From the NCBI RefSeq assembly GCF_015637705.1, contig NZ_JADOBE010000008.1, positions 1 to 64,000 of the forward strand: a stretch of 64,000 bases of DNA. The letters run 5' to 3'. Below the pieces are notes generated by a model, which did not search any database, was not told where the DNA came from, and worked only from the letters and a program-made list of their open reading frames with translations. This DNA is from Pseudomonas sp. N040. Its GTDB lineage: Bacteria; Pseudomonadota; Gammaproteobacteria; Pseudomonadales; Pseudomonadaceae. The position numbers and the translations under genes were made by a program. Of the stretch, positions 21,889-25,907 are shown piece by piece (position 1 is the first letter of the stretch; every line of letters begins with the position of its first letter).

Positions 21889-22587
21889 TCAGAACTTGTA
21901 GCCGACACCGACCATGTAGACCCATGGGTCGATGGTGACGTCAACGGAGGTCTTGAGGCCTGGAGCCAAGGCAGAAGGGCCATCCATGGTGGCTGTGGTA
22001 TCGATATCGATGTACCAGACGGCAGCGTTCAGCAGGACATTGTCGGTTATCAGGTAATCCATACCCAGCTGGCCGGCAACTCCCCAAGAGTCATCCAGCT
22101 CCAGATTGCTAAAGCCCAAGGCTTCGTACTGCGAGCTCAGGTCTTCGTCGAAGAAGGTGGTGTAGTTCACGCCAATGCCGGCATAGGGCTGAAACTTGGA
22201 CGCCGGATCCATTGGGTAGTACTGCAATGACAGGGTTGGCGGCAGGTGCGAAACATCCGCGACCTTCCCGTTTAATGGGCCTCCCAGGAAAGTACTATTT
22301 TTTACTTTTACTTCATGGGTGAAGGGTGTGGCGGCCAGCAGTTCAAGACCCAAATGGTCTTGCAGCATGAACGCAAAAGTCAGGCCGAGCTGAGTGTCAC
22401 TTCCGACTGTGACATCACCGCCACCAGGCAGATCAGCGCCGTTTACAGAAATATTCCCACTGCTGTCATTAGGGCTAACAGTCGCCGCACCGGCGCGAAC
22501 AATTACATCGCCTTCCTTGTAGGCATGAGCCAGTGGCGAAACCAGTGCTGCAGCCAGCAGCGAGACGGCGAAAATGGACTTGCGCAT
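21889..22587 (-). CDS. ompW: OmpW/OprG-family outer-membrane protein
   Basis: Eight-stranded outer-membrane beta-barrel that lets small hydrophobic molecules cross. The ATG at 22587 follows GGGAG and gives 232 residues with a clear signal peptide (MRKSIFAVSLLAAALVSPLAHA). It ends in the aromatic outer-membrane signature VGYKF. The family motif around PPTLSLQYYP is present. The P. aeruginosa counterpart OprG is induced without oxygen through ANR, and an ANR-type box lies upstream here (22656-22669). Confidence 0.94.
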   Translation of the reverse strand: MRKSIFAVSLLAAALVSPLAHAYKEGDVIVRAGAATVSPNDSSGNISVNGADLPGGGDVTVGSDTQLGLTFAFMLQDHLGLELLAATPFTHEVKVKNSTFLGGPLNGKVADVSHLPPTLSLQYYPMDPASKFQPYAGIGVNYTTFFDEDLSSQYEALGFSNLELDDSWGVAGQLGMDYLITDNVLLNAAVWYIDIDTTATMDGPSALAPGLKTSVDVTIDPWVYMVGVGYKF

Positions 22588-22703: not shown

Positions 22704-23225
22704 TTACTCGGCAGCCTGCTGGTAGGGGTATACGTCTTCGGCAGTCATCTGGTAACCGGCTTCGGCCAGTTCGCTGCTCGCCGCCTCGACCTCAAGCGGG
22801 CCCTGAATCCAGAACGGCTCGTAGAGCGCATCCAGTTGCACGCCTTGCGGGTATTTGACCAGCACGATCTGGTTGGATGGCGGTGGTGGTACGTGGATGC
22901 AGGCGCCGAAGAACGGCACCAGCAGGAAGTCGGTCACCTTGCCGTCATCGGTGACTTCCAGCGGGACTACATAGCCGGGCAGCTTGACCCGCTGACCGCC
23001 CAGAGCCTTTACCACCGGGGCGGCCGGGGATTGCTGTGCAACGGCTGGCGCCATCTCCGCCGAAAGGGTATCGCCCAGCTTGGCCAGGTCGTGGATGGGC
23101 GCGCCCTGCATCTCCTGCGGCGCAGCATCGGCAGGAATCATTTCGTTCCAGGTCAGCTCGCGCACCTCAGCTGCCCACAGGGGGCTGGAGGAGAGAAGCA
23201 ACAAGATCAGCAGGCGGCGCAACAT
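22704..23225 (-). CDS. DUF3299 periplasmic protein
   Basis: Small exported protein of unknown biochemical function, 173 residues. The ATG at 23225 was preferred over a GTG at 23237 because GAGG lies 6 bases before it; it opens with a signal peptide (MLRRLLILLLLSSSPLWAA). The DUF3299 core includes KLPGYVVPLEV and FFGACIHVPPPPSNQ, whose Cys and His could bind a metal. It is the last gene of a four-gene operon with an ABC transporter and a His-rich protein, behind a Zur-like box, so a part in zinc acquisition is inferred. Confidence 0.85.
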   Translation of the reverse strand: MLRRLLILLLLSSSPLWAAEVRELTWNEMIPADAAPQEMQGAPIHDLAKLGDTLSAEMAPAVAQQSPAAPVVKALGGQRVKLPGYVVPLEVTDDGKVTDFLLVPFFGACIHVPPPPSNQIVLVKYPQGVQLDALYEPFWIQGPLEVEAASSELAEAGYQMTAEDVYPYQQAAE

Positions 23226-23233
23226 ACAGAACC

Positions 23234-24496
23234 TCACAGGCGAATCGAAAGACCATCGGACAGCGACTGACGGTAGGCGCGCCAGGCAGGCAGGCTACCC
23301 ATCAGCAAGGCGGCCGCAAGGATAGCGCCAAGCAGCGACCACTCATAGCTGCTCGGCAGCCGCAGCGGCAGGTAGAGCCCGTAGTTGGCCTGCACGTAGC
23401 CCTGGCTGGCGCTGATGCCCAGGTACAGCAGCAACAGGCCAAGCAGAATTCCCGCCAGTGCCAGGCTGAAAGCCTCCAGCACCAGCAGGCTGGCGATATG
23501 CCAGGGGCGGGCGCCGACCGAGCGCAGGATGGCCATCTCGCGGCGGCGCTCGTTGAGGCTGGTGAGGATCGCCGTGAGCATGCCGATCAGGCCCGTCAGC
23601 ACCACAAACAGCGAGACCACGAACAGCGCCTTTTCCGCGGTGCCCATCAGGCTCCAGAGTTCCTGCAAGGCAACCCCGGGCAGGATCGCTTGCAGCGGCT
23701 CGCCGCTGAACTCGTTGATCTGCCGTTGCACGGCAAAGGTGGCAACCTTGCTGTTCAGCCCCAGCAGTACTGCGGTGATGGCTGTCGGCTGCAGGCCCAT
23801 GGCGCGCGCCTGTTCGGCACTGACGCGCCCTGCGCCCTGTGCCGGCATGCCGTTCTGCCAGTCGACATGCAGGGCGTGCATGCCGGCCAGGGAAATATGC
23901 AGGGTGCGGTCAACCGGCGTGCCGGTGCGCGCCAGAATGCCGCTGACGCGAAACGGCTTGTCGTCATGCTTGCTCAGGCTGACCTCGCTGACACCATGCG
24001 CCAGCACCAGCTCCTGCCCCAGCTGGTAGTTCAGTGCTGCCGCTACTTCGGCGCCCAGTACCACGTCGAACAGGTCTGCGAAAGGTTTGCCCTGTGCCAG
24101 TTGCAGGGCTTGGCCGCGGCCATATTGGTAGTGTTCGAAATAGCCGGTATCCGTGCCCATGACCCGGTAGCCACGGTGAGAGTCGCCGAGCGAAATCGGG
24201 ATCGCCCATTTCACCTTGGGGTTATCCGCCAGCCATTCAAAACTGCTCCAGCGAATATTGTTGGTGGCATTGCCAATGCGAAAGACCGAATAGAGCAGCA
24301 GATTGACCGAGCCAGAGCGTGCTCCGACGATCAGGTCGGTGCCGCTGATGGTGCTGGCGAAACTGCTGCGGGCTTCGGTTCTGACGCGCTCAACGGCCAG
24401 CAGCAGGCACACGGAGAGGGCGATCGCCAGTGCGGTAAGCAAGGTGGTGAAGCGGCGGTTGTTCAGGCTCGCCAGGGCCAGGCGCAAGAGGAACAT
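23234..24496 (-). CDS. ABC transporter permease, FtsX/MacB type
   Basis: Inner-membrane permease of 420 residues. It has one N-terminal membrane segment (about 17-37), a large periplasmic domain, and three C-terminal segments with the FtsX signature LNERRREMAILRSVGARP at about residue 315. It pairs with the ATPase whose stop lies 1 base upstream. Such permeases often move lipoproteins or act mechanically rather than carry ions; with the flanking DUF2796 and DUF3299 proteins it is inferred to serve metal homeostasis. Confidence 0.9.
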   Translation of the reverse strand: MFLLRLALASLNNRRFTTLLTALAIALSVCLLLAVERVRTEARSSFASTISGTDLIVGARSGSVNLLLYSVFRIGNATNNIRWSSFEWLADNPKVKWAIPISLGDSHRGYRVMGTDTGYFEHYQYGRGQALQLAQGKPFADLFDVVLGAEVAAALNYQLGQELVLAHGVSEVSLSKHDDKPFRVSGILARTGTPVDRTLHISLAGMHALHVDWQNGMPAQGAGRVSAEQARAMGLQPTAITAVLLGLNSKVATFAVQRQINEFSGEPLQAILPGVALQELWSLMGTAEKALFVVSLFVVLTGLIGMLTAILTSLNERRREMAILRSVGARPWHIASLLVLEAFSLALAGILLGLLLLYLGISASQGYVQANYGLYLPLRLPSSYEWSLLGAILAAALLMGSLPAWRAYRQSLSDGLSIRL

Positions 24497-24497
24497 G

Positions 24498-25205
24498 TCA
24501 TTGCTCCGGCGCGCGGCTGGCGCGGTTCAGGTCGCTCAGCGACAGGCTGTGATCGAACAGCGGGGCCAGGCTCTGGTCATGGCTGACGAACAGCAGGCTG
24601 GCACCGGCCTCGCGGCATTCGGCGAACAGCAGCTGGAGGAAGGTCTCGCGGCTGTCAGCGTCGAGTGCCGAGGTTGGTTCATCGGCAATCACCAGTTCCG
24701 GTTGGCCAATCAGCGCACGCGCCGCGGCCACGCGCTGCTGTTGGCCGATGGAGAGTGCGTCGGCACGGCGTTGCAGCAGCTCGTGACGAATCCCCAGGTG
24801 TGCCAGCAGCACAGTGGCAGCCTGCTCGACACTGCCGTGGCGCTGGCTCGCCCGCTGGGCGCGGCTGGCAGAAAAACGGCAGGGCAGCGCGACGTTTTCC
24901 AGTACCGGCAGGAAGGGCAGCAGGTTGAACTGCTGGAAGATGTAGCCGGTGTGGTCAACCCGGAAGCGGTCGCGCGCGCTGGCTGACAGTTTGCCCAGTT
25001 CGGTGCCCAGCAGTTTTACGCTGCCGCGGCTGGGTTGCTGTACACCGCTCAGCAGGCCGAGCAGGGTGGTCTTGCCGCTGCCGCTCGGGCCCTTGAGAAA
25101 CAGGCTGGCGCCGCGCTTCAGGGTGAAGGCGGGGATGTCCAGCAACTCGGGCTGGCCCGGCCAGGTAAAACCCAGGTTGGTAATTTCGATCAGGGCTGGC
25201 GACAT
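24498..25205 (-). CDS. ABC transporter ATP-binding protein, LolD/MacB type
   Basis: Cytoplasmic ATPase of 235 residues. The ATG at 25205 (MSPALIEITNLGFTWPGQPE) was chosen over a longer frame because family members begin here. Walker A GPSGSGKTTLL is near residue 37, the signature LSIGQQQRV near 140 (a variant of LSGGQ), Walker B ELVIADEPTSALD near 160 and the switch histidine in FVSHD. It drives the adjacent permease; gene order DUF2796-ATPase-permease-DUF3299 matches PAO1 PA4063-PA4066 as I recall it. Confidence 0.92.
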   Translation of the reverse strand: MSPALIEITNLGFTWPGQPELLDIPAFTLKRGASLFLKGPSGSGKTTLLGLLSGVQQPSRGSVKLLGTELGKLSASARDRFRVDHTGYIFQQFNLLPFLPVLENVALPCRFSASRAQRASQRHGSVEQAATVLLAHLGIRHELLQRRADALSIGQQQRVAAARALIGQPELVIADEPTSALDADSRETFLQLLFAECREAGASLLFVSHDQSLAPLFDHSLSLSDLNRASRAPEQ

Positions 25206-25316
25206 GGTGATCCAGGGGGCGGGTAGATGCCGACAGCATAGGGAGGATTGCCTGGCTTGTCGGCGGGATTCAGCAGGGCGCTCGAGGCGCACGCGCTTCG
25301 GCAGTGTAGGTTGGTG

Positions 25317-25871
25317 TCAGAAGTCGATGGCCGGCGAGTCTGCGCTCAGTTCGGCACCTTTCTGGCCGCTCGGACCGATCAGCTGCACGACGATGGCCGT
25401 GGTCCCCGGGAATTGCCTGAACAGTGGCGCCAGGCTGATCGAGGTCAGGGCCTCGGGCGCGCTGCAGGTCAGGGCGTAGTCGGCAGCAATATCGTTATGA
25501 GCCAGCCCTTCCACAGTGGCGGGCCCCCCGTCATGTTCCGCATGGCCGAACAGCGGGCTCTCGACCTCGACCTTGTGCACTGTGCAGGCGGCGCCTGGCG
25601 GCAGGCTGAACAGTTGCAGCGGCTGCTCCAGAACAGCGCGTGCCGCCGCAACGCTGGCCAGATCTGCTGGGCTGCTGGGCGCGTGCTCAAAGCCGAGGAT
25701 GTTCATCGCCGGACTTTCCAGCTCAATCTCCAGCGTGTTGCCGTCCAGTGCCAGGTTGAGGCTGGCAACGCCATGCTGGTGTTTGTCCAGGCTGCCGTGC
25801 TGGTGGTCGTCAGCCACTGCCGCCGCCAGGGGCAGCAGGGTTAAAGGCAGGGCGAGGAGAAGGGTGCGCAT
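25317..25871 (-). CDS. DUF2796 periplasmic His-rich protein (putative zinc binder)
   Basis: Exported protein of 184 residues. The ATG at 25871 follows a strong GGAGG site and opens with a signal peptide (MRTLLLALPLTLLPLAAAVA). The mature N-terminus DDHQHGSLDKHQHG has four histidines in two HxH pairs, and another cluster GHAEHDGG comes later, as expected of a periplasmic zinc ligand donor. It is first gene of the operon, 20 bases downstream of a Zur-like palindrome. Zinc binding is inferred from composition and context. Confidence 0.87.
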   Translation of the reverse strand: MRTLLLALPLTLLPLAAAVADDHQHGSLDKHQHGVASLNLALDGNTLEIELESPAMNILGFEHAPSSPADLASVAAARAVLEQPLQLFSLPPGAACTVHKVEVESPLFGHAEHDGGPATVEGLAHNDIAADYALTCSAPEALTSISLAPLFRQFPGTTAIVVQLIGPSGQKGAELSADSPAIDF

Positions 25872-25890
25872 GAGAGCCTCCGCGATTGAT

Positions 25891-25907
25891 TTGTTATGTT
25901 GTAACAA
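25891..25907 (-). promoter_or_regulatory. Putative Zur operator
   Basis: The palindrome TTGTTA-TGTTG-TAACAA has 6-bp perfect half-sites and resembles the gammaproteobacterial Zur consensus (GTTAT...ATAAC). It lies 20-36 bases before the DUF2796 start, where a repressor would block transcription of the zinc operon. Confidence 0.6.

Follow-up and report, generated by a model that had tools for sequence, protein, structure and literature searches.

Positions 22704-25871 of the window (the whole 64,000-nucleotide stretch of Pseudomonas sp. N040 DNA analyzed here) hold a four-gene operon on the minus strand, comprising zrgA and genes for an ATPase, a MacB/FtsX-type permease and a DUF3299 protein, and this locus is a Pseudomonas-type copy of the known PA4063-PA4066/ZrgABC(E) zinc-starvation system. 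The locus as such is one further copy of an operon already known; the comparison of zrg loci presented here touches an open dispute, zinc uptake versus cobalt-pyochelin export. We consider it probable that the Zrg operon mediates Zur-repressed zinc acquisition, in which zinc passes from ZrgA to a transfer site of the permease, and that it is able to work without ZnuABC.

Gene content and the probable Zur operator

The features of the locus are as follows:

25891..25907, minus strand: Zur operator-like 17-bp palindrome (core and upstream conservation)
25317..25871, minus strand: zrgA, periplasmic zinc-binding protein (PF10986, ZrgA, 1.7e-49)
24498..25205, minus strand: zrgC-type ABC ATPase, LolD/MacB-NBD-like (ABC_tran, 1.1e-28)
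23234..24496, minus strand: zrgB-type permease (FtsX, 7.8e-19; MacB_PCD, 1.5e-12)
22704..23225, minus strand: zrgE-type DUF3299 protein, a PA4066 relative (DUF3299, 7.9e-48)
21889..22587, minus strand: OmpW-family porin gene, which often adjoins Pseudomonas zrg loci; a candidate neighbour, not an established operon member

The ZrgABC(E) gene set (zrgA, ATPase, FtsX-type permease and DUF3299) is thus complete at the locus, with gaps of 111, 1 and 8 bases in that order, and the Pfam matches together with the last two gaps bear out the operon of a DUF2796 gene, an ABC pair and a DUF3299 gene, the last three tightly spaced, that the initial annotation had proposed. In every one of 80 loci from Pseudomonas and close relatives, the best 80 of 585 confirmed stretches, the four genes are grouped on a single strand; these loci are mutually related and are therefore not independent events, and in one of them (L171) an over-long DUF3299 ORF alters the listed gene order. 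A promoter scan gave a single, plus-strand site and found no terminator-like site.

ZrgA matches PF10986 at 168.3 bits (gathering score 27.4) and the NCBIfam equivalog NF047873 at 115.8 bits, under the cut-off of 185, and we therefore regard it as a divergent ZrgA. The two HxH pairs noticed earlier in this DUF2796 protein are H23/H25 and H31/H33. Zinc site 1 of ZrgA (HxH, Glu, His) is described in PMC9820375; by our own mapping, its ligands H31, H33, E62 and H125 are present in the window protein, as is the cysteine pair C96 and C136. Each of the four ligands is kept in 20 of the 22 aligned ZrgA rows, an alignment that includes the weak ZrgA-like proteins of L081, L082, L083 and L094, with no ABC pair nearby, and leaves aside the ZrgA of G185 and G060. 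The closest solved chain is PA4063 (7ahw, 1.8e-48). The DUF3299 protein carries a GACIHVPPPPSNQ motif (C109, H111), and its closest solved chain is 4hsp (2.8e-54), named PA4066 in PMC8561739.

The equivalence with PA4063-PA4066 that the initial annotation had pointed out agrees with both the sequence comparison and the literature: the gene kinds are the same, and a Zur box has been published for the P. aeruginosa operon (PMC11481552, PMC8561739). The differences are that the His-rich loop of the window ZrgA is much shorter than that of PA4063 and that the window genome is devoid of pyochelin marker matches. Vibrio ZrgABCDE likewise has homologues of ZrgA, the ATPase, the permease and the DUF3299 protein in a zinc-repressed operon (PMC9820375, PMC9817125), but the gaps between the four window genes are too small for a ZrgD gene, and V. 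cholerae ZrgA, which has a long His-rich loop, aligns more weakly with the window protein (66.6 bits).

The palindrome, TTGTTATGTTGTAACAA, occupies 25891-25907, with 19 bases between its end and the zrgA ATG. This ATG, at 25871, is preceded by GGAGG and is most likely the start of zrgA, rather than the TTG at 25907; the box is therefore upstream of the coding region. The 3.67-Mb genome contains the core of the box, GTTANNNNNTAAC, three times, as against 19 matches of the reversed pattern; the second copy is in the znuA-zur intergenic region, and the third (L002) looks like a chance occurrence. The Zur-like site noticed earlier ahead of the operon is present. The same genome encodes Zur-, ZnuA- and ZnuC-like genes, the Zur-like gene adjoining znuC and scoring 110.2 bits with the Zur model (cut-off 167).

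When the scan was anchored on the HxHG motif, a Zur-like site was found ahead of zrgA in all of the best 80 of 585 loci, with at most two mismatches in 75 of them (2.5% of control windows); the HxHG anchor replaced that of an earlier scan, the start codon lying furthest upstream, with which 59 of these 80 came within three mismatches. Across the class, a site within three mismatches of the Pseudomonas-style box was present at just 6 of 21 ZrgA loci (control, 10.7%). Judged from sequence, the operon is likely under Zur control, and the zinc-starvation role suggested earlier is likely as well, fitting both the sequence and the published work.

The permease and its candidate metal site

The ATPase has the Walker A motif GPSGSGKTT and the signature LSIGQQQR, and its best NCBIfam match is LolD (156.4 bits; cut-off 307.75). 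The permease matches the MacB periplasmic core PF12704 at 48.7 bits (against 27) and the LolCE model weakly (38 bits; cut-off 362.45). Its FtsX and MacB_PCD domains uphold the earlier description as MacB/FtsX-like, and with the LolD-like ATPase they place the pair beside the MacB/LolCDE/FtsEX/YtrEF superfamily. We rejected plain MacB membership despite the PF12704 match: the ATPase and permease are separate genes, unlike the fused MacB exporter, and a single-query search, which could miss a remote adaptor, found no ORF resembling MacA around the cluster at the best 80 of 585 loci. In the 36 class loci, the sole match of the single MacA query was the query protein itself.

A structure model of the permease, built with 41 sequences taken from Pseudomonas-type loci, was of poor quality (mean pLDDT 57.7, pTM 0.44); residue distances were therefore not used, and the fold search on it served for superfamily placement only. 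The predicted fold matched MacB, LolCDE, YtrEF, YbbAP, HrtBA and FtsEX, with MacB among the top matches; none of these is a known importer. The complex may, as the initial annotation proposed, not be a classical importer. The solved relatives in the fold search are considered to act by mechanotransmission. For MacB, this mode of action is described in PMC11481552.

Six residues, D105, H107, H167, H177, D196 and H210, are conserved between predicted membrane helices 1 and 2. All of these except H107 are kept in 26 of 28 aligned permease relatives, an alignment that leaves out the remote relatives L227-L229 and the partial permeases L075 and L098; the two exceptions, the ZnuA-linked L226 and L230, lack D105, H167 and H177. 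Unlike the window permease, all four LolC/E- or MacB-type permeases compared lack H167 and H177. H210 stands opposite a histidine in three of those four and is therefore not diagnostic. Four sister permeases have His-rich inserts in the same region. The pattern of conservation suggests a putative metal-transfer site on the periplasmic domain, for which H167 and H177 are the residues we offer for testing.

Proposed zinc acquisition and competing explanations

In the proposed mechanism, Zur would leave the box at 25891-25907 when zinc is scarce, and the four genes would be expressed. ZrgA would bind periplasmic zinc at its HxH/E/H site and deliver the metal to the permease's own periplasmic domain, where H167, H177, D105 and D196, perhaps with H107 and H210, may form the transfer site. 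The LolD-like subunit, by hydrolyzing ATP, would move this domain, so that the metal is released or pushed on, with the DUF3299 protein as a putative helper; the net outcome would be zinc acquisition able to run without ZnuABC. The gene content, the operator, the zinc-regulon context and, from the literature, the zinc need in Vibrio are supported; what we infer is the transfer site, how the partners contact one another and a possible passage of zinc across the inner membrane through ZrgB itself.

That the mechanism of PA4063-PA4066 is unsettled, as the initial annotation stated, is reflected in the literature, in which zinc uptake in Vibrio (PMC9820375, PMC9817125) stands against cobalt-pyochelin export in P. 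aeruginosa (PMC11481552). Under the latter explanation, which we consider unlikely here, the ABC pair would be a split MacB exporting cobalt-pyochelin or a different metallophore; the operon would shield cells short of zinc against excess cobalt. This explanation is backed by direct genetic evidence and cobalt data from P. aeruginosa PA14: loss of PA4065 led to more cobalt, and in a znuA zrmB background deletion of pchE abolished this rise (PMC11481552). A later paper, of 2025, retains the export reading. Zinc acquisition is also opposed by the zinc affinity of PA4063, which is only micromolar (PMC8561739), and by the finding that deletion of PA2914 or PA4065 added to znuA cntL did not lower cellular zinc further (PMC11761036). 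Expression of PA4063 is zinc-dependent (PMC11481552). The MacB_PCD domain and the MacB fold matches also accord with export, whereas the failure of the single MacA query to find an adaptor, in either set of loci, and the requirement of ZrgA for growth of Vibrio under zinc limitation (PMC9820375, PMC9817125) tell against it.

So does the distribution of pyochelin markers. We take TIGR01761 and TIGR01803 to be pyochelin marker families, and neither passed its cut-off in any of 34 genomes with zrg-type genes, our own included, in a test run without a P. aeruginosa positive control; sub-cut-off matches occurred in 9 (TIGR01761) and 23 (TIGR01803) of these genomes, and among 14 built-in control genomes the models passed in one and none, respectively. 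The window genome had no match to either model at all, again without that positive control. The test set comprised the 24 genomes with ZrgA above cut-off, eight genomes of the best-80 loci, and G017 and G177, which have the permease and DUF3299 but gave no match to ZrgA; it leaves out G087 and the below-cut-off ZrgA genomes G014, G026, G063 and G105.

The class-wide search gave a ZrgA match in 28 of 229 genomes (24 above cut-off). In 12 of 23 genomes a zrg gene has a match to the Zur model NF008646 no more than 2 kb away, at more than 80 bits in nine of these; the other 11, our own among them, have none within that distance, and a match above the model cut-off occurred in only 1 of 27 genomes. 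As further points in favour of zinc acquisition, the L075 cluster adjoins ZigA, which passes its cut-off, and a zinc-type binding protein that falls below the cut-off of the AztC model, and locus L077 contains a dihydroorotase. Both ZnuA and the ABC-3 (ZnuB-type) permease were missing in 6 of 23 genomes, four of them with ZrgA (G044, G185, G139 and G143) and two (G017 and G087) in which a contig edge carries the permease and DUF3299 genes but ZrgA has no match; a ZIP match was also missing in four of the six. ABC-3 is commonly missing anyway (75 of 229 class genomes), and we therefore claim no enrichment for Zrg replacing ZnuABC. ZnuABC, which occurs in the same genome as the window operon, shares with it the presumed regulator and the starvation role, but its ABC-3 permease and ZnuA binding protein belong to other Pfam families.

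A further explanation, to which we give only about one chance in five, holds that zinc is not moved across the membrane; ATP-driven motion would strip envelope ligands or ZrgA and pass the zinc to ZnuA or another importer. The mechanotransmission ascribed to the fold relatives, the conserved histidines between the first two membrane helices and the proximity of zrgA to znu-type genes in G141, G145 and G010 are consistent with this, but the six genomes with neither ZnuA nor ABC-3, and the activity of V. cholerae ZrgA in a znuA deletion background (PMC9820375), argue against it. LolCDE-like mobilization of a metal-binding lipoprotein, an idea raised earlier for which the LolD match of the ATPase might speak, is very improbable; we rejected it on the weak LolCE match and because, on inspection of the window sequences by eye, neither ZrgA nor DUF3299 has a cysteine in its signal peptide. 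On sequence grounds, the zrg comparison leans toward metal acquisition rather than pyochelin export, because of the missing pyochelin markers, the nearby Zur matches and the genomes lacking ZnuA and a ZnuB-type permease.

A possible class of metal-supply permeases

We tentatively suggest, as a possibility with the balance against it, that the Zrg permease is a branch of an FtsX/MacB-type ABC class for metal supply, with a His/Asp periplasmic site in most branches and a modular collector (ZrgA, a His-rich permease insert or a ZnuA-type binding protein), powered by ATP-driven periplasmic motion rather than by a ZnuB-like channel. Such a class goes without a name in the zrg literature examined. 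If the acquisition reading is right, a permease fold considered an exporter or mechanotransmitter would also serve nutrient-metal acquisition.

The zrg operon and its probable Zur box

The window's locus is an ordinary further copy of the Zrg/PA4063-PA4066 operon. Its role is most likely zinc acquisition; of interest is the way in which a machine of MacB/FtsX type would serve that role, and our comparison yields permease residues that are worth testing. Coordinates and Pfam matches confirmed the four-gene cluster where the initial annotation had located it, entirely on the minus strand:

25317-25871, minus strand, zrgA (ORF and Pfam match)
24498-25205, minus strand, ATPase gene (ORF and Pfam match)
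23234-24496, minus strand, permease gene (ORF and Pfam match)
22704-23225, minus strand, DUF3299 gene (ORF and Pfam match)

Counted from zrgA, the intergenic gaps are 111, 1 and 8 bases, and the ATG at 25871 is a better zrgA start than the TTG inside the box. A permease search of the named genomes confirmed at least 585 stretches, and the best 80 of these (nearly all labelled Pseudomonas, with 1 Stutzerimonas and 2 unclassified Gammaproteobacteria) were used; the four zrg genes are grouped on a single strand in 80/80. An OmpW-family porin gene (21889-22587, minus strand) lies downstream of the DUF3299 gene on the same strand, and the window scan found no terminator-like site between the two. 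A same-strand OmpW-like ORF is present at 75 of these best 80 loci, in 69 of them no more than 300 bases from the DUF3299 end, and the porin may be an outer-membrane partner.

The palindrome at 25891-25907, initially noted for its resemblance to a Zur site, is real and rare in its own genome: GTTANNNNNTAAC occurs at 3 places in 3.67 Mb, compared with 19 for the backwards-read pattern. The second place lies between divergent genes matching ZnuA and Zur plus ZnuC models, with scores of 110.2 bits for Zur (cut-off 167), 244.8 for ZnuA (268) and 345.1 for ZnuC (306); the third, at locus L002, looks like chance. The best match to GTTATANTATAAC was also sought in a 320-base stretch that precedes an anchor placed near the start of zrgA, with random windows from the same loci as control. 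Among the best 80 of the at least 585 loci, 75 matched with at most 2 mismatches (control 2.5%) and 80 with at most 3 (control 3.2%). Class-wide ZrgA loci gave 5/21 (control 2.4%) and 6/21 (control 10.7%) at these respective thresholds, which suggests that the box as written is mainly Pseudomonas-style, or that the operator lies elsewhere where gene order differs. The window's operon is very probably under Zur control. In a set of papers (PMC11481552, PMC8561739, PMC9820375, PMC4542158, PMC13083405, PMC9817125, PMC11761036), PA4063-PA4066 expression is linked to zinc and Zur, zinc binding by PA4063 is micromolar, and ZrgA has a role in zinc-dependent growth of two Vibrio species; the word "histidine" is absent from the main text of PMC11481552.

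The ZrgA and DUF3299 proteins

The equivalence to PA4063-PA4066, proposed in the initial annotation, is borne out by solved chains: ZrgA is closest to PA4063 (E 1.8e-48) and then to V. cholerae ZrgA (2.4e-17), and DUF3299 to 4hsp (E 2.8e-54), named PA4066 in PMC8561739. The site-1 zinc ligands of V. cholerae ZrgA, as described in PMC9820375, correspond by our own mapping to H31, H33, E62 and H125 of the window's ZrgA, each present in 20 of 22 alignment rows; the cysteine pair is present in 22/22, and the His-rich loop is almost gone in the window's protein. In the DUF3299 alignment, H111 is kept in 27/27 rows and C109 in 26/27, and these conserved positions are a possible candidate metal site. 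A DUF3299 protein at compared locus L088 (6134-6847) is without the motif cysteine (GAGVH) and carries a short tail with two His at its end. The second DUF3299 gene of the window's own genome (L084, 6148-6681, minus strand) adjoins purK, with no Zrg-type permease alongside.

The permease and its proposed metal site

Zrg and sister permeases match the permease family profile over their full length at approximately 190 bits or more, a few intermediate matches score 75-194 bits, and a long list of other FtsX-type proteins aligns solely through the C-terminal part, at scores below 50 bits. D105, H167, H177, D196 and H210 are kept in 26 of 28 aligned relatives (21 Zrg, 4 sisters and the remote relative at L225), the exceptions being those at L226 and L230, and H107 is found in 20 of the 21 Zrg rows. 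H167 and H177 are missing from 4/4 permeases that we read as LolC/E- or MacB-type; H210 is not specific, since 3 of these 4 have a His there. The structure model of the permease is too poor for judging how close the conserved residues lie. Our inference is that metal handling falls to the periplasmic domain in most permeases of this branch. The sister permeases are as follows:

L095, 3667-5025, His-rich insert just past H210
L096, 6712-8073, His-rich insert just past H210
L097, 3589-5034, His-rich insert just past H210
L224, 5689-6924, His-rich insert just past H210

The neighbours are ZigA and a Zur-like gene at L096 and, by our own reading, two COG0523-type GTPases at L095, and a weakly DUF3299-like protein adjoins the permeases at L095, L096 and L097; the four genomes gave no ZrgA match. 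At L226 (4162-6978), a ZnuA-type protein (PF01297, 2.4e-39) adjoins a remote MacB/FtsX-like permease and LolD-like ATPase, and L230 (5285-8051) has a ZnuA-type neighbour, by sequence resemblance only, of such a pair; a ZnuA-type protein beside a MacB/FtsX-like permease is an unexpected pairing. At L225 (5731-9892), the genes for the remote relative and its ATPase are followed or preceded on the same strand, in one run, by those for an alkaline phosphatase (alkaline phosphatases are a family of zinc enzymes) and for a Cys-containing protein of 150 aa.

Proposed cobalt-pyochelin export and the zinc-regulon context

PA4064/PA4065 have been proposed to form a split MacB that exports cobalt-pyochelin; PMC13083405 retains this proposal and PMC11761036 presents it together with the zinc role. 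We searched 34 genomes that carry zrg-type genes, 26 of them drawn from the class sample and 8 belonging to the named set, for TIGR01761, the thiazolinyl imide reductase model, and TIGR01803. We take these models to represent PchG and a PchB-like protein, respectively. Neither model passed its own cut-off in any of the 34 genomes (0/34), in a run that had no P. aeruginosa positive control. Below cut-off, TIGR01761 matched in 9 and TIGR01803 in 23, the latter at 48-67 bits (cut-off 73 bits) in 4 of the 8 named genomes; among 14 built-in control genomes, TIGR01761 passed in 1 and TIGR01803 in 0. With the weak matches and the missing positive control as caveats, the 0/34 result makes cobalt-pyochelin export unlikely as the general role. 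Zinc acquisition remains the preferred reading; it and the wider view of a metal-handling machine are slightly weakened by the two of 28 relatives without the proposed residues and by the lack of that control.

ZnuABC was surveyed in 27 genomes (23 with zrg and 4 with a sister permease). ZnuA and ABC-3 gave no match in the same 7: G044 and G185 (single-contig genomes of one genus), G139, G143, G017 and G087 (in the last two the cluster is at a contig edge and the ZrgA match absent) and the sister-type G025. A ZIP protein scoring over cut-off is encoded by two of the six that carry zrg, G139 and G017. Because ABC-3 is missing from 75/229 class genomes anyway, these absences show only that Zrg does not depend on the presence of ZnuABC. 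In 12 of 23 genomes a match to the Zur model NF008646 lies no more than 2 kb from a zrg gene, at more than 80 bits in 9 of them; no match within that distance was found in the other 11, the window's own genome included. At any distance, only 1 of 27 genomes has a match over the cut-off of this model. Near zrgA at compared locus L075 lie ZigA (over cut-off), a further CobW-related GTPase and an AztC-like binding protein (both below cut-off), and L077 holds a dihydroorotase and, by our own reading, a COG0523-type GTPase.
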